Shown here in pieces: positions 5,879 through 14,596 of a DNA stretch of 38,845 bases. Source of the stretch: Bacteroidota bacterium (GTDB lineage: Bacteria; Bacteroidota; Bacteroidia; B-17B0; Aurantibacillaceae); NCBI GenBank assembly GCA_013697245.1, contig JACCXH010000040.1, positions 1-38,845 of the forward strand. Direction: 5' to 3'. Every line of letters begins with the position of its first letter. Positions within the stretch are counted from its first letter, which is position 1. Made by a program: the position numbers and the translations under genes. The notes below the pieces were generated by a model. The model ran no database searches. It was not told where the DNA came from and saw only the letters and a program-made list of their open reading frames with translations.

Positions 5879-8800
5879 TTAATTTCCTTTTGTAATGGTT
5901 ATGTTTGAGATGGTTAGATCTTTGTTAGAATCTGTTATTATGCTAAGCCGGTTCACGTTTTCTGAATACCATTTATAAATGCTGCTTATTCTTATTGCGT
6001 ATTTTTCTTGCTTGTCTGATGGTATGATATCAAATTGGATTGTTGTTGGGTTTTTATTGCTTGTGTTACCAAATAATAATTTTGCCTTTTGTCCTTTTCC
6101 TGTGTTTTTGCAGGTAATAATAATTGTATTACCACTTGACCGATCCATTTTTTCAGGGATCGAAAGGCTGTATGCTTTGTTGGCTTCGAGTAAAACAATT
6201 TCATTCTTTTCAAACAAGATTTTCTGATCGGAAAGCAGTTTATCGTTTGCGCCCCAAACATACGGAAGTTTTTCAAAATTATAGAACAAGGTTCGGTGAG
6301 AAAAATAGTCCGGAATATGATCTGATTCGATAACCAAAAACTCTGTAATCTGTTGCCAATCGTTTTTAAGTGTTAGGTCATAAAAATTTTCCTTAACGTC
6401 TAATATAGAATAAACGGAGTTTTCGTTTATAGATTTTATTTGTGGAAAAGTTGTGTTTCCATTGTTCATTAAACTAAGTTCATAATTCATTTTATTTTGT
6501 GATGTGATCATTACAGTATAAACTTTGTCCGGTTTTATTTTTAATCCTGTTTTTATAGTTTTTTCATTAGCTATCGAGTCTGTTATTTTAAAATAAGTAA
6601 ATATAGTGTCCTTTTTATTTATATCCTTGGTCGCGTTACTTCGCCATAAACAAAAGTTATTTACAATTATAAATGGTTTATAGTTGTTATAAAAATATTC
6701 TGCCATTTTATAATGCCTAACCGAATTTGGCACATCATCTATATTATCATAACCAACTTCGGATAGCCCGGAAAATAAAAGATATGGCGTTTTATAGTCT
6801 TTAAGGCCGTTTATGAATTTTTCCTGCAGGAAATCATTTTGTACACATAAAGGCGATTGATAGAACCAGGAAGGTGTTTCCTTTTTGGTAAAAAAGTAAA
6901 GCATTGGTCTATTCGAAAAATCAATGAAGGTTTCATCCGGCTTAGTATTCTTTTTAATAAAATCGCTGAACGGTTTATATCTTTGTGTAATAGTATCCGG
7001 GGCATTACTTACGCGGCTGCTAATAGTAGAAAGCATAATGTTCTGCGTATTCTTTGTCTTTTCTTCCAGGCGCTCAAAAAAACTCTTCATGCCTTTTGGT
7101 TCGGGCAAACGATATGTATTTATAGTAACAAAGGCGATCACAAAAAACATAGCACTCTTTACAAGATTATTTTCCTTTCTAAATAAAACAAAGACCGACG
7201 CGGGTAAAATAATATATATAAAAGAGGCCACAAAACCATCTGAGCCTTCTAACAAACTATGGCGTATAAGACCTCGGTTAAAATTAACGAAATAAAATAT
7301 GCAAATAAATAACAGGCTTAAATAGGCTTGCCTTTGGCTTTTTGACTTGTTCAATTCTTTATATTTTATGACCATTATAATCATTAAGATCGCCACAATA
7401 GCGGGAAAAATAAAATATTGGGCTTTGAAAACAGTGGTAGTGTTATCGCCAATAGAATGGTAGCCGTAAGATTGTGCGGATGCACAATAGTTAAGAAAAG
7501 AACCAAGATTAGAAAACAGGTTCTTTTGCCGAACAACAGATAGTGTTGTTAATATTGTAACAATAAATCCAAAGGAATATACAATGGATTTAAACAGAAC
7601 GCGCCAATTGATTTTTTGTTGCTGATCACGAAAATGATAATACAAAAGTAAAAAGAGCATTGTTAAAAGACAATTGTAACCAAGGTCTATTCGCCAACAT
7701 ATTAAAAAAAGTAAAACACTAAAATAAATTAAATAGTTTTTTACGGATTGTTTGGCGCCTATAACTTTAAATAAAGCAAAGATCCCAAGTATAGAGAAGC
7801 AGAATCCTTCAGGCATCAATACTTCTGCGTAAGGAAAAAATAATACTAAAAAGATCGCAACGAATTCATTTCTTGTTAGAAACCTGAACAAAAAATAAAA
7901 CAGTGTGCATGAAATAGGTAAAAGAAAGAAATCATATAGTGTGATCTCGTTTATTTTAAGTCCATTGAAAAACACATATATGTAACTAAAAAAATAATCT
8001 GATAATAAGTGTGTGTTAAGTTTTTCTACTGGCGATAAAGTGCCAAAAAGCTTATACTCCATAATGGGGAGGTAAACGTTACCCGACTCGAAGATTTCGT
8101 CATAGTACTCTGCATAATAACTATAACTTAAATAGGCAAATAAAGAAAAAATAAATAGAGGAAAATAATTCTTTGCCAGCAGATCTTTTTCTGAAATTAT
8201 TTCATTTTTCTTTCCTTTTTTATACCGGTATATTATTAAAAGGCTTAGTATTAAAAGCAACCCTAGATAAATAAACTTTTGATCCGCTAAAACAATACCA
8301 TTACTTTTTAATACCAAAAAAAGCTCGTCTTTTAATACACTCATAAAAGGCAGCGCCAGTAATGGAAGAAACGCAAATATAATAATACGGAAATGAGCTT
8401 GTGGGTTTGGTCGTTTTGAATTTCTTAAGAAAAGGTTCACCACAACAAATAATAAAAGAGCGATAATAAATGTAGTAATGTAAAGATCGGGATTATTGAG
8501 ATTACCTAAAAAATTGTTGAGGTCTGCTATTAAAAAATAAGAGGCTGCTGCCCATAATAAAATTGTTGAGAGTTGGTAAACCGATAATTTATTTTCTTTA
8601 TAAATAAGGATCCTGATAGTTATGCTGACAAGCATTAACTTATGAAAAAAATAAATGAACTCGAGTGTTTCGTATACCTCAACATTAAAGACCTTGAAAA
8701 TAAAAATAAATATGCCTGTTACAGATGCGTAATTAATTAAGCGATTTTCGGTACAACTTAACAACGTTTCTTTTTTTCGAGAAATAATATACCCTAGAAA

Positions 8801-9049
8801 TGTGAATACTAAAAAAGCGCCAAAAAATACAGCAATACATTTATAGAATAAGGCAACCCTGGCTTCAACGTCCACATTATTCATCGTGGCAATTCCTATC
8901 ATCCTGCCGGAAAACGAATGAAGGTTGAGATCGGCAGAGCTAACGATACTTATTACAAGCCATAGCGAATAAAACAAACTTGTAAATATTATAGATCTTC
9001 CTCTGCCTGTAAAAAACGAGCCGAAGGAGCTAAAGTAAGTTTGTTTCAT
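5879..9049 (-). CDS. Large polytopic membrane protein, possibly GT-C-like
   Basis: This 1056-residue protein has about fifteen hydrophobic helices over roughly residues 15-640, then a largely soluble region of about 400 residues. I do not recognise a named family with certainty. The architecture of many helices followed by an extracytoplasmic tail is similar to GT-C lipid-linked glycosyltransferases or polymer-processing membrane proteins. The segment FIDFSNRPMLYFFT followed by an aromatic-rich QSPL region resembles a periplasmic loop in such enzymes. An acidic pair suitable for GT-C catalysis (YAEYYDEIFESGN, about residue 320) precedes a helical hairpin. The C-terminus looks beta-rich. It is transcribed with the STAS-like gene (2-bp gap) and lies 58 bp downstream of the secreted-protein gene. 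Function is inferred only. Confidence 0.6.
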   Translation of the reverse strand: MKQTYFSSFGSFFTGRGRSIIFTSLFYSLWLVISIVSSADLNLHSFSGRMIGIATMNNVDVEARVALFYKCIAVFFGAFLVFTFLGYIISRKKETLLSCTENRLINYASVTGIFIFIFKVFNVEVYETLEFIYFFHKLMLVSITIRILIYKENKLSVYQLSTILLWAAASYFLIADLNNFLGNLNNPDLYITTFIIALLLFVVVNLFLRNSKRPNPQAHFRIIIFAFLPLLALPFMSVLKDELFLVLKSNGIVLADQKFIYLGLLLILSLLIIYRYKKGKKNEIISEKDLLAKNYFPLFIFSLFAYLSYSYYAEYYDEIFESGNVYLPIMEYKLFGTLSPVEKLNTHLLSDYFFSYIYVFFNGLKINEITLYDFFLLPISCTLFYFLFRFLTRNEFVAIFLVLFFPYAEVLMPEGFCFSILGIFALFKVIGAKQSVKNYLIYFSVLLFLICWRIDLGYNCLLTMLFLLLYYHFRDQQQKINWRVLFKSIVYSFGFIVTILTTLSVVRQKNLFSNLGSFLNYCASAQSYGYHSIGDNTTTVFKAQYFIFPAIVAILMIIMVIKYKELNKSKSQRQAYLSLLFICIFYFVNFNRGLIRHSLLEGSDGFVASFIYIILPASVFVLFRKENNLVKSAMFFVIAFVTINTYRLPEPKGMKSFFERLEEKTKNTQNIMLSTISSRVSNAPDTITQRYKPFSDFIKKNTKPDETFIDFSNRPMLYFFTKKETPSWFYQSPLCVQNDFLQEKFINGLKDYKTPYLLFSGLSEVGYDNIDDVPNSVRHYKMAEYFYNNYKPFIIVNNFCLWRSNATKDINKKDTIFTYFKITDSIANEKTIKTGLKIKPDKVYTVMITSQNKMNYELSLMNNGNTTFPQIKSINENSVYSILDVKENFYDLTLKNDWQQITEFLVIESDHIPDYFSHRTLFYNFEKLPYVWGANDKLLSDQKILFEKNEIVLLEANKAYSLSIPEKMDRSSGNTIIITCKNTGKGQKAKLLFGNTSNKNPTTIQFDIIPSDKQEKYAIRISSIYKWYSENVNRLSIITDSNKDLTISNITITKGN

Positions 9050-9107: not shown

Positions 9108-10046
9108 TTAGTTTTTATGTGAGCCCTTTGGTTTTTGTTTGATGACAACGGCAAAACCAAAATTTAAATACGGTAAAAACGCAAAGCCATCTTTCATATA
9201 ACGCGTTTGTAATTTAGGAATATTGTTTGGATCAGTTATTGTGGCAGAGGCAGGTAAAGCATTTCTTGTTTTCCAGGAAAAATAAGTGTTCTTTGTGAAG
9301 GCAGCATAAGTACCAGGAATAATAAAAAATTCTAAAGATGACTTGTCGCGTTTGAATTGAAAATTTAATTTTAAAAAAAGCCCTACGCCCTTTTTGGTTT
9401 GCGTGAAATAATAAATACCATCATCGGGCCGATATTTATCTTGTTTACTGTCCAACTCCACGTGTGCCATAACCTGTTGTCTATACGAAGCGGCGGCGCC
9501 AAGCGACATTCTTCGCCGGCCCTTATAATAATGCCTTGAGGCACCAATTTTTATTTCTCCACCCTCACTGCGATTATACAGGAGGGTCTTCCAGTCTGTT
9601 CCGTAATAATTATTTCCCTGTTCCGGCAAAAATTTATAAAACCCATCCACGTCTAAAGAATATCTTTTGGTGTACATTCTTTCGTAGCCGAAACTAACTT
9701 TGTTATAAACAATATCTGTAAAATAAATTCTTACCGAATTTCTAACCAAAGGCAAAGAGTCATAGTTAACAGGTTTTTTTAGGTGCTTCTGTTGCTGAGA
9801 TTCGGGCTTAACCGTAATTTCATATTGCTCAATGGTACCGTCGGCATATTTAATTTTTAGAACACTATCTCGTGAAACCTCGTAAGTTCTAATGGGCTCG
9901 GAAAAAGAACTATACTTAATCGTTTCTGGATTTATTTCTTTAACACGCGCTACAACAATTTGCTCGCTTCTAAAAAAAATTGAATCTTGAGCAGATCCAT
10001 CCGCACAAAATAAAACGAAAATAATTATTGCAACAAAATATTTCAT
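9108..10046 (-). CDS. Secreted beta-rich protein, probable outer-membrane barrel
   Basis: This 312-residue protein has a Sec signal peptide (MKYFVAIIIFVLFCADGSAQ). A short N-terminal domain, about residues 20-85, contains VARVKEINPETIKY and IKYADGTIEQYEI. It resembles a small beta domain seen at the start of many Bacteroidota exported proteins. From about residue 105 the sequence alternates aromatic and polar residues (VRIYFTDIVYNKVSFGYERMY, FFIIPGTYAAF, FLPYLNFGFAVV), as expected for an outer-membrane beta-barrel of eight to ten strands. No named family is recognised. It sits 40 bp downstream of metH on the same strand, but metabolic linkage to metH is not evident. Confidence 0.6.
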   Translation of the reverse strand: MKYFVAIIIFVLFCADGSAQDSIFFRSEQIVVARVKEINPETIKYSSFSEPIRTYEVSRDSVLKIKYADGTIEQYEITVKPESQQQKHLKKPVNYDSLPLVRNSVRIYFTDIVYNKVSFGYERMYTKRYSLDVDGFYKFLPEQGNNYYGTDWKTLLYNRSEGGEIKIGASRHYYKGRRRMSLGAAASYRQQVMAHVELDSKQDKYRPDDGIYYFTQTKKGVGLFLKLNFQFKRDKSSLEFFIIPGTYAAFTKNTYFSWKTRNALPASATITDPNNIPKLQTRYMKDGFAFLPYLNFGFAVVIKQKPKGSHKN

Positions 10047-13000: not shown

Positions 13001-13809
13001 GCGCTAACATAGAAAGGTGCCTTTTCGGACAATTCTTCCAGATAGGGCCTCATATCTTTTGCGCCAAGCGCACAGTTTAAGCCAACGCTTAGCAGATTGA
13101 CATGTGAAACTGAATTTAAAAAAGCTTCGGTTGTTTGACCCGATAAAGTTCTTCCACTGGCATCGGTAATTGTACCGGAAACCATTACCGGCATTTTGCG
13201 ATCAATACTTTCACAATAATTTTGAATAGCGAACAAAGCTGCCTTTGCATTAAGTGTATCAAAAATTGTTTCAACCAATAAAAGATCAGCGCCGCCATCA
13301 ATTAAACCTTTTACCTGTTCGGTATAAGCGGTTACCAGCTCATCAAATGTAATGGCGCGAAAACCAGGGTCGTTTACGTTAGGCGATAAAGATAAAGTAC
13401 GGTTCGTTGGCCCCAATGCGCCCGCTACAAATTTTGGTACAGACGCGAACTCCGGAAATTCTTTGTAAAATTCTTGTATGGCTTCTTTAGCAACCTTAGC
13501 AGATTCAAAATTTAATTCATAAGCCAGCTCCTGCATTTCATAATCGGCCATAGCCACAGTAGTAGCGCTAAAAGTATTGGTCTCAATAATATCAGCGCCG
13601 GCCTTTAAATATTCTTTATGAATGGTTTTAATAATTTGCGGTTGCGTAATCGAAAGCAGGTCGTTATTGCCTTGCAGATCTTTATGCCAATCTGCAAAAC
13701 GTTTGCCGCGAAAATCTTTCTCCTCCAGTTTATACTGTTGGATCATACTTCCCATGGCGCCATCAATTACTAATACGCGTTTTTCAAGTTCCTGTTCTAT
13801 TGTGCTCAT
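10087..13809 (-). CDS. metH: Cobalamin-dependent methionine synthase
   Basis: MetH transfers a methyl group from 5-methyl-THF through cobalamin to homocysteine. All modules are present in 1240 residues. The homocysteine domain (about 1-330) has zinc ligands C246, C309 and C310. It is followed by a pterin-binding domain (about 345-620, with [10 protein letters not shown]), the B12 cap, the B12-binding domain with DVHDIG (H766 is the lower cobalt ligand), and the SAM-dependent reactivation domain (about 920-1240, with [12 protein letters not shown]). The positions closely track E. coli MetH (C247/C310/C311, H759). The ATG at 13809 gives the expected N-terminus. Expression is probably controlled by the SAM-I riboswitch upstream. 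One oddity is an extra segment at about residues 1054-1070 ([13 protein letters not shown]), encoded by a palindromic repeat inside the activation domain. Confidence 0.98.
10605..10650 (-). repeat. Palindromic repeat-like insert inside metH
   Basis: The minus strand reads CAAATCTTCCCTCTCTAAG then GGAGAGATACAAGAGG. This C/T-rich arm, G/A-rich arm and AGAGG tail resemble the element just upstream of the metH start (13811-13850). The element is in frame and adds about 13 residues at MetH positions ~1056-1068, where other MetH proteins have a short loop. Confidence 0.5.
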
Positions 13810-13810
13810 A

Positions 13811-13850
13811 AGCCCCTCCTCTTATCCTCCCCAAAAGGGAGGAAGAAATT
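13811..13850. repeat. G/C-rich palindromic element at the metH start
   Basis: TCCTCCC (13825-13831) pairs perfectly with GGGAGGA (13837-13843) across a 5-nt loop, with a CCCCTCCTCTTA flank reaching the metH start codon. Its base composition differs strongly from the AT-rich surroundings. It resembles short intergenic palindromic repeats of Bacteroidota genomes and the insert inside metH. A hairpin placed directly before the ATG could affect translation initiation. Confidence 0.55.
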
Positions 13851-13872
13851 TGATTATAATTGTTTTTTTAAA

Positions 13873-13907
13873 TAAAAAATCCCTTCAGACTTGCGCCGGA
13901 AGGGATT
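13873..13907 (-). terminator. Intrinsic terminator of the metH riboswitch
   Basis: On the minus strand AATCCCTTC (13907-13899) pairs with GAAGGGATT (13886-13878) in a perfect 9-bp stem with a 12-nt loop, followed by a U-rich run. It lies between the SAM-I aptamer and the metH ATG, the usual place for a riboswitch attenuator. Confidence 0.88.
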
Positions 13908-13951
13908 AGTTTATATGCTTATTTTAAAAATGTTTAACTAATTACTCCGAC
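13895..13951 (-). promoter_or_regulatory. Antiterminator hairpin of the metH leader
   Basis: On the minus strand GTCGGA (13951-13946) can pair with TCCGGC (13900-13895), with one G-U pair, and ATTAGTT (13942-13936) with AACTAAT (13911-13905). Together that is 13 pairs around a small internal loop. This covers the whole 5' arm of the terminator (13907-13899), so the two hairpins exclude each other. The first bases (13950-13951) also belong to the 3' strand of riboswitch P1, so SAM-stabilised P1 should disfavour the antiterminator. Confidence 0.65.
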
Positions 13952-14119
13952 TTATTTTTCTCGTTTTAACGAGACGAATTCCCACCTTCTTTTAGTGTTC
14001 CTGGTTTGAGGTTTCTTGTTTAAGGCTTAGAACCAGAAACACGAAACAAAAAAACAAGAAACTCTTATAAGGGTTGGTAAAGCTTCATTGGGCGTATCCC
14101 TCTGCTTTTCTTAATAAGT
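13950..14119 (-). ncRNA. SAM-I (S-box) riboswitch upstream of metH
   Basis: The minus strand follows the S-box consensus. P1 is ACTTATT (14119-14113) with AATAAGT (13956-13950). Then come AAGAAAAGCAGAGGGA, the GCCCAATGAAGC segment, CCAACC, then AAGGTGGGAATTC and a P4 hairpin TCTCGT/ACGAGA. The P2 strand AAAGC pairs with GCTTT. The family binds S-adenosylmethionine and switches methionine or SAM genes off. The terminator and antiterminator downstream imply transcriptional control of metH. At about 170 nt it is longer than typical (about 110 nt), because P3 carries an extra ~80-nt segment with repeat-like sequence. Confidence 0.93.
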
Positions 14120-14137
14120 GTTTTAAAGAACTGACAT

Positions 14138-14169
14138 CAAAGATAATACAAATTATGTAATTTTACAAA
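14138..14169 (-). promoter_or_regulatory. metH promoter
   Basis: On the minus strand TTTG (14169-14166) is followed after exactly 20 nt by TATCTTTG (14145-14138), a perfect Bacteroidota -33/-7 pair. Transcription would begin near 14132, about 13 nt before riboswitch P1. The -33 element reaches to 2 bp from the divergent DUF4440 gene's ATG. Confidence 0.75.
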
Positions 14170-14170
14170 T

Positions 14171-14596
14171 ATGAAAAAACTCACTTTTCTGCTTTTTATG
14201 TTTTCTTTTGTTTGTTCTGTAGCCCAAAAAGATAAGGCCGGAACAGGTCTTGTTCTAATCAACATGAAGGCTCAAGAAATAGCCTGGAACAAAGGCGATA
14301 TACCGGGTTTTATGGCCCATTATTGGAAAAGCGACAGTCTTAAATTTATTGGCAGCAAAGGCATTACTTATGGCTGGCAAAAAACATTGGATAACTACAT
14401 AAAAAATTATCCTGATAAAAAAGCCATGGGGGTTTTGACTTTTTCTATAATTGAGTCAACACAACTTTCTGAGAACAGTGTTTATATTATTGGCAAATGG
14501 GATCTTCAAAAAGAAAAAAATGCTGGGGGGTATTTTACGTTGCTCTGGAAAAAAATAAATAACAACTGGGTTATTGTTACTGATCATACAAGTTAG
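14171..14596 (+). CDS. Secreted DUF4440/SnoaL-like protein
   Basis: This 141-residue protein has a signal peptide (MKKLTFLLFMFSFVCSVAQ). The mature part fits the NTF2-like fold of DUF4440/SnoaL: an N-terminal helix (INMKAQEIAWNKGDIPGFMAHYW), the DSLKFIGSKGITYGWQKTLDNY segment, then beta strands ending in GYFTLLWKKINNNWVIVTDHTS, the typical C-terminal sheet. Proteins of this group bind or convert small ligands, but most have no assigned reaction. It is divergent from metH, whose promoter lies immediately upstream, and is followed by the DUF1653 gene on the same strand. Confidence 0.8.
   Translation: MKKLTFLLFMFSFVCSVAQKDKAGTGLVLINMKAQEIAWNKGDIPGFMAHYWKSDSLKFIGSKGITYGWQKTLDNYIKNYPDKKAMGVLTFSIIESTQLSENSVYIIGKWDLQKEKNAGGYFTLLWKKINNNWVIVTDHTS

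Follow-up and report, generated by a model that had tools for sequence, protein, structure and literature searches.

The SAM-I riboswitch upstream of metH in the window (the whole 38,845-nt stretch of DNA that we analysed) carries on its P3 stem an arm made of two inverted arrays of a degenerate heptamer. We think it likely that this arm is a nested, self-pairing spacer hairpin that has been renewed within the lineage, and that the riboswitch acts on metH, probably through transcription termination. P3 would be prolonged by a hairpin in which one strand is the heptamer array and the other its inverted complement, and by pairing with itself the arm would prevent this long insertion from intruding on the core of the aptamer. 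Renewal would change the words on both strands, with the hairpin form and a length of mostly 70-95 nt retained, and may proceed in blocks by a DNA process, either exchange with a pool of dispersed hairpins or slippage and template switching in place.

The SAM-I riboswitch probably controls metH by transcription termination. The sequence-only reading of this DNA had called a SAM-I riboswitch with a repeat-expanded P3 arm and had proposed a covariance-model search as a check. The search with RF00162 confirmed the class, exceeding the gathering cut-off across the whole model, and the methionine gene metH lies downstream, with its start at 13809, 139 bases from the aptamer (Table 1). In transcription-terminating S-box leaders, the 5' strand of the antiterminator begins in the 3' strand of P1. 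The putative antiterminator of the window is arranged in this way, and in the predicted fold part of its 3' strand is the 5' side of the putative terminator. A consensus scan of 13800-14250 gave neither a promoter nor a terminator-like site. The ORFs downstream of metH (9108-10046 and 5879-9049, minus strand; 312 and 1056 aa) had no NCBIfam or Pfam match at E 0.001, and metF as the gene after metH was dropped on the same ground, that no family in either collection matched.

The genome of the window has another SAM-I riboswitch (L001:1501-1628), which is of a different type, with a GAGAGAATAG core and a 35-nt P3 arm in which no heptamers were seen. This type was found at 16 of 31 genus loci, with arms of 29-41 nt.

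Table 1. Features of the metH leader and its P3 arm, in coordinates of the window.
Feature	Position	Strand	Basis or remark
SAM-I (S box) riboswitch aptamer	13949..14120	-	cmscan RF00162, 60.9 bits, gathering 44.4, model positions 1-108
P3 base, 5' strand	14071..14077	-	Rfam alignment; held in constrained fold
P3 extension, 85 nt, two inverted degenerate heptamer arrays, (GTTTCNN)n then (NNGAAAC)n	13987..14071	-	sequence
Word A	14052..14062	-	nested partner B', slipped partner A'
Word B	14031..14042	-	nested partner A', slipped partner B'
Word A'	14011..14021	-	nested partner B, slipped partner A
Word B'	13995..14006	-	nested partner A, slipped partner B
P3 base, 3' strand, GAAGGUGG	13982..13989	-	Rfam alignment; held in constrained fold
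Putative antiterminator 5' strand, GUC overlapping P1 3' strand	13936..13951	-	fold of 13962-13885, limits by eye
Putative intrinsic terminator hairpin, then U run	13878..13907	-	fold, limits by eye
metH, cobalamin-dependent methionine synthase, 1240 aa	10087..13809	-	NCBIfam NF007024 2091 bits, TIGR02082 1760 bits, both above cut-off

The arm is written in sevens on both of its strands. It is the stretch between CAACC and GGUG, in the place of the short P3 loop of the Rfam model. The first half reads, roughly, GTTTCTT-GTTTTTTT-GTTTCGT-GTTTCTG-GTT and the second AAACAAG-AAACCTC-AAACCAG-GAACACT, and TRF reported a period-7 row at 14031-14062. The arm is predicted to fold into a single hairpin about its own centre, with 26 bp (-20.0 kcal/mol, z -2.85). 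The earlier claims that P3 had been expanded by repeats and that the expansion is structured thus held up, the second as a prediction. Compared with SAM-I as described in Rfam (RF00162), the core, P1-P4 and the position before a methionine gene are alike, and the window differs by the 85-nt heptamer hairpin in P3.

Long heptamer arms were common among the SAM-I leaders of relatives. We scanned with the N-terminal 350 residues of MetH and took the best 80 of 318 loci. RF00162 matched in 73 of these 80 (by batch 20/20, 18/20, 20/20 and 15/20), in some cases about 0.9 kb upstream of metH and not directly before the gene; there was no match in L057, L071, L093, L100, L105, L107 and L111, some of which have little upstream DNA. 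Arms could be parsed in all 73 leaders from these best 80 loci, 51 of them 55-94 nt long and 22 of them 14-33 nt. Adding the window and a further 30 loci that came from the genus search brought the set to 104 parsed arms, of which 59 were at least 60 nt and 54 of those distinct, with a few genomes represented twice; four extra genus loci are outside the counts of 54 and 59, among them G002, which entered the fold and covariation comparisons, and L134, which entered the comparison of SAM and TPP arms within genomes. The mean lag-7 self-match within the halves of the 54 distinct long arms was 0.53, and shuffling lowered it to 0.33 (z 35.6); the period was echoed at lags 14 and 21. Among lags 4 to 11, lag 7 was best in 46 of the 54, lag 8 in six, and lags 6 and 4 in two others. 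Every one of the 59 long arms was predicted to form a hairpin about its centre with 15 pairs or more; z was below -2 in 48 (mean z -3.1) and -2 or above in 11.

Arms of this kind were also found outside the genus. In a class-wide sample of 149 genomes, RF00162 matched in 107, and the match was at least 150 nt in 12 (read off the list), two of them in the genus of the window. Among the ten others were eight clear lag-7 arms (0.51-0.67), spread over five family codes that include the window's own; one of the remaining two prefers lag 8 and the other was unclear. Of seven matches of 140-149 nt, one was unparsed and none of the rest stands out. The heptamer arm of L217 is G+C-rich.

Self-pairing of the arm is predicted to protect the aptamer core. 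The mean predicted pairing probability of P3 over the 54 arms was 0.54 with the native arm and 0.19 with dinucleotide-shuffled arms whose ends were kept. The native arm gave the higher value in 51 of the 54, and three did not beat their shuffles. For the window the values were 0.36 and 0.07. Native arms thus raise predicted P3 pairing, as they should if self-pairing protects the core. Such protection should be expected of any hairpin, and the shuffle test says nothing about heptamers as such. We infer that the nested hairpin forms in the cell and that there is selection for self-pairing.

The arms changed between species beside a conserved core. The repeat word varies by species (GTTTCNN, ATGTTAAAT, AAGTAAGA, GTTTGAAA, AATTAAG and others). 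Among 52 long-arm leaders, mean arm identity was 0.67 at gene identities of 0.85-0.90 and 0.62-0.64 below that, compared with 0.58 (sd 0.04) for shuffled arms; the core in the same leaders had mean identities of 0.90 and 0.79-0.84, respectively. The window and L033 have gene identity of 0.878, core identity of 0.92 and arm identity of 0.558, which is chance level. A quickly built metH tree placed the window together with L033, L034 and L035 in a supported group, with L037 adjacent. The GTTTC arm is common to the window and L037, and L033, L034 and L035 carry two other kinds. At least eight changes between long and short arms are needed on the metH tree.

Hairpin form does not appear to be kept up by paired point changes. 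In the closer pairs of arms we counted 3 compensatory, 29 one-sided and 27 broken pairs (13 comparisons, with sequences shared among them). With so few compensatory changes, single arms decay, and we infer that the hairpin is maintained by renewal, in blocks and by a DNA process, although some changed arms retain likeness to each other: L033 and L035 have identical cores and arms at 0.72, above the shuffled range, and the TPP arms of L202 and L203, described below, are also at 0.72 (shuffled 0.62, sd 0.03).

Arms of the same kind occur in TPP riboswitches of the genus. RF00059 matched in 36 of 40 genus genomes and was over the cut-off in 10. Of 40 TPP loci examined, 29 were parsed, and 20 of the 29 had an arm of at least 55 nt, 71-93 nt long and lying between GGGGUGC and GGCUGAGA. 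The lag-7 self-match of these arms was 0.547, compared with 0.334 after shuffling (z 15.7), and lag 7 was best in 16 of the 20. The 20 include L204, whose parsed limits lie about 13 nt too far outward, and L196, in which no heptamer was seen. Of the 11 loci that could not be parsed, eight are among the 10 over the cut-off, and in seven of those eight a looser pattern read arms of 11-17 nt. The genome of the window has a TPP arm of 79 nt (L199) with words different from those of its SAM arm, and its two arms are not alike. The window element is not itself a TPP riboswitch; it shares with RF00059 only the kind of arm. Cobalamin riboswitches, present in 39 of the 40 genus genomes, spanned 124-232 nt compared with 189 for the model, and judged by span alone they include no long-arm class.

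The sequence-only reading had supposed that a repeat entered a working aptamer and there acquired structure. The repeat-expanded P3 is as it described, but the account does not reach far enough, since many leaders of the clade have long arms, other families of the class have them with different words, and a second class of riboswitch has them too.

In 26 of the 36 genus genomes with a TPP match, none was above the Rfam cut-off; long arms were present in many of these and short ones in some. Standard annotation would therefore miss real TPP riboswitches. Seven of the 27 parsed low-scoring TPP loci have arms shorter than 55 nt, so low scores have causes other than the long arm as well.

Copies resembling some arms are dispersed through genomes of the genus. 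With the arm of L036 as the query, there were matches in 27 of 40 genus genomes, with up to 29 in one (counting both strands and the riboswitch arms themselves). Nine of the match places, on examination, were between ORFs of at least 100 aa, overlapping them by at most 7 bases. The arm of L036 therefore has dispersed copies of the sort looked for in a mobile palindromic element of the REP or MITE type. Two of the nine places, in L154 and L158, lay inside TPP-riboswitch-like sequence, assigned by sequence motifs and an RF00059 match; cmscan at the gathering threshold called no TPP riboswitch in either. The arm of L203 (query, 64 of its 82 nt) had arm-like copies in G012 (87% over query positions 2-60) and G032 and no near-identical copy in its own genome. 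A search of the window's genome with the window's arm likewise gave no near-identical donor; nothing but the arm itself and a 27-nt stretch of coding DNA matched.

The heptamer signal in the genome of the window was weak. The exact match to three GTTTC heptamers occurred in one place, and a strict lag scan for heptamer stretches found nothing. A looser scan of a 319-kb sample found lag 7 in eight intergenic and two coding stretches; lags 6, 8 and 14 were each found in 5-6 intergenic stretches, so the lag-7 signal there counts for little. A crude scan for hairpins in this genome gave 355, with an unremarkable mean lag-7 value and about two convincing heptamer hairpins besides that of the window. 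Genome-wide enrichment of GTTTC was dropped as a candidate, because the run of three heptamers occurred 45 times at up to two mismatches compared with 40 for the reversed control.

Two further long intergenic heptamer hairpins were noted in this genome (L119:12823-12913 and L122:17945-18013), and no Rfam family matched at the gathering threshold in L119 or L122. By eye, L003:1440-1580 (contig C41, around 240205-240237) is a mixed array, with TAGTCNN-like units giving way to others that are AAC/GAAAC-like, and it looks as if the words change along a single array.

The arms may come from a pool of dispersed heptamer hairpins, copied or recombined into the terminal loops of structured RNAs, an origin that we hold to be about evenly poised. 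The arm-like copies in many genomes, intergenic at nine examined places, are consistent with it, as are the similar sizes of SAM arms, TPP arms and dispersed copies. One case is the TPP locus of G003 (L202), compared with that of its near relative G031 (L203). The 120 bases before the arm are 96% identical and the 140 after it 100%, and the arms are 72% identical (shuffled 62%, sd 3%). The SAM arms of the same two genomes (L034 and L033) are 95% identical, and the TPP arm of G003 aligns with the SAM arm of G003 over 77 columns; G031 thus matches G003 in its SAM arm and differs from it in its TPP arm. Over 16 genomes with both a long SAM and a long TPP arm, SAM and TPP arms from the same genome had a mean alignment score of 17.2 compared with 13.2 for those from different genomes, reached in 157 of 20,000 permutations, and their count of shared 6-mers was reached in 51 of 20,000; both permutations ignore shared descent, and the likeness was driven by G003, G017 and G023. 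The arms of L036 and L050 are 96.5% identical, with cores at 85% and genes at 81%. However, neither of the two arms searched had a near-identical donor in its own genome, the genome of the window gave only about two clear copies in the 319-kb sample by the crude scan, and by eye we noticed neither conserved ends nor duplicated target sites nor an encoded mover.

Renewal in place is a possibility that we rate lower. Slippage during replication would preserve the period of seven, and template switching inside the hairpin of DNA would copy units from one strand to the other, so that complementarity could be restored without a donor. The failure to find a donor copy for the two arms searched fits such a process, as does the residual likeness in the cleanest pairs of changed arms. 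An earlier survey is reported to have found that repeats of 7 nt outnumbered the other classes in most bacterial genomes, and slippage has been proposed (PMC4679880). The likeness of SAM and TPP arms within genomes and the arm shared by L036 and L050, however, need something more than change in place, or convergence. These two observations favour exchange with a pool over change in place.

The two interleaved pairings in the window's arm seem unlikely to be a regulatory switch. The sequence-only reading had held that A:A' and B:B', because they interleave, oblige the arm to choose one helix or to form a pseudoknot, which would place a regulatory choice within the arm. The words themselves were correctly described: all four lie inside the P3 insertion of the RF00162 match, on the minus strand, with the letters given, A:A' is a perfect 11-bp match, and B:B' is 12 bp with one G-U pair. 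The interleaving is above chance: when the 85-nt arm was dinucleotide-shuffled 1000 times, interleaved helices of at least 11 bp never arose, and the best shuffle reached 10. Of the 53 other distinct long arms, three have interleaved helices of this length, but 38 of the 54 have no interleaved pair of even 8 bp. The four words all derive from a single degenerate heptamer or its complement, and A therefore also matches B', and B also matches A', which the sequence-only reading had missed.

With P3 held as in the Rfam alignment, the nested pairing A:B' plus B:A' was the predicted best state in all three arms of the GTTTC word type. For the window the energies were -40.0 kcal/mol for the nested fold, -30.3 with A:A' and -35.4 with B:B', so the two interleaved pairings are 9.7 and 4.6 kcal/mol worse. 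For L037 they were -33.5, -31.7 and -27.1, with the nested fold using mostly A:B', and for G002 -50.4, -39.6 and -39.5. A full pseudoknot would require a 4-nt loop to span an 11-bp stem. The claim that a choice or a pseudoknot is forced is thus not supported by the folds. With P3 left free, the competition was closer. The nested fold of the window was at -41.6 kcal/mol and the best fold with B:B', in which P3 is broken, at -40.7, only 0.9 kcal/mol above it; the expected numbers of pairs in the free ensemble were 6.5 for A:B', 3.5 for B:A' and 3.4 for B:B'. The best free fold of L037 uses A:A'. Because B:B' competes in the free ensemble and disrupts P3, it could in principle oppose SAM binding. 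Based on these predictions, we regard A:A' and B:B' as slipped registers of one repeat, offset by about two units (15 nt), that are real minor options and not a designed switch.

Covariation was assessed in the relatives with arms of the same word type. The sequence-only reading had named covariation in A:A' or B:B' as what would support its model. There were three strong matches to GTTTC-type arms in 40 genus genomes: the window, L037 and G002. All 11 pairs of A:A' are possible in both relatives, with one double change, G-C to A-U, in G002; only 10 of the 12 pairs of B:B' are possible in L037, and likewise in G002. A:A' thus gains one compensatory change. The changed base of A is paired in the nested fold as well as in A:A', so this change does not separate the two. 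In the nested structure, 26 of 26 pairs are kept between the window and G002 (21 unchanged, 4 one-sided and 1 double change); compared with L037, 22 are unchanged, 1 is one-sided, 2 are broken and 1 is gapped.

That the arm is an A+T-rich loop expansion that looks repetitive by accident can be given almost no credence: an A+T-rich background does lift weak matches (lag-7 baselines of 0.27 for coding and 0.31 for intergenic DNA), but the period-7 z scores of both the SAM and the TPP arms and the G+C-rich heptamer arm of L217 argue strongly against it.

The nearest parallel to the heptamer arm is P6b, a stem-loop of the group I intron in tRNA-Leu(UAA) of Nostoc. P6b is always built on a 7-nt motif, TDNGATT or NNTGAGT, its length is variable, and one motif class has repeatedly and independently been replaced by the other (PMC4476775). 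The likenesses are the 7-nt period in both strands, seen here in the lag-7 values of the SAM and TPP arms, and the complementary strands that make one stem, as in the predicted centred hairpins of all 59 long arms. Close relatives on the metH tree have different words here, but the changed arms of two clean pairs remain above shuffles in likeness. The differences are that our arms are in riboswitches (SAM-I and TPP) of Bacteroidota and have many words, whereas P6b, as given there, belongs to a cyanobacterial self-splicing intron and has two motif classes. The window element is a riboswitch and not a group I intron, and is therefore a parallel to P6b and not a member of its kind.

A fixed heptamer, TAACTGA, is known as direct repeats in Beggiatoaceae, Cyanobacteria and five Bacteroidetes, where its distribution is intergenic and patchy (PMC4679880). 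Unlike the arms described here, which are inverted arrays within RNA, those repeats are one word in direct orientation, in the Beggiatoaceae genome mostly just upstream of start codons. Among the listed titles and abstract openings of open-licence PMC papers, we found no description of heptamer arms in riboswitches.

We put at close to even the chance that, in Bacteroidia, dispersed heptad-periodic hairpins serve as interchangeable arms of structured RNAs, repeatedly taking the terminal loop of P3 in SAM-I and of the corresponding arm in TPP riboswitches, exchanged between loci of a genome and between species and tolerated through their self-folding. If so, interchangeable hairpin arms would be a modular and mobile mode of riboswitch evolution. 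What looked like the curiosity of one leader is part of a general pattern, with dozens of natural riboswitches that have near-identical cores and very different arms. These could serve as a test system for the weight of the arm in ligand binding and switching, for how complementarity fares when both strands change, and for why the unit is seven. A practical consequence is that riboswitches with such arms can drop below annotation cut-offs, as many TPP riboswitches of the genus do.

The heptamer GTTTCTT also occurs within a coding region on contig C41 of the window's genome (L121:14621-16246, minus strand). The 541-aa product is dihydrolipoamide acetyltransferase-like, with two lipoyl-type domains recognised by eye and KQET-rich linkers, e.g., KQETENKKQETGNKQETTNTKQET.
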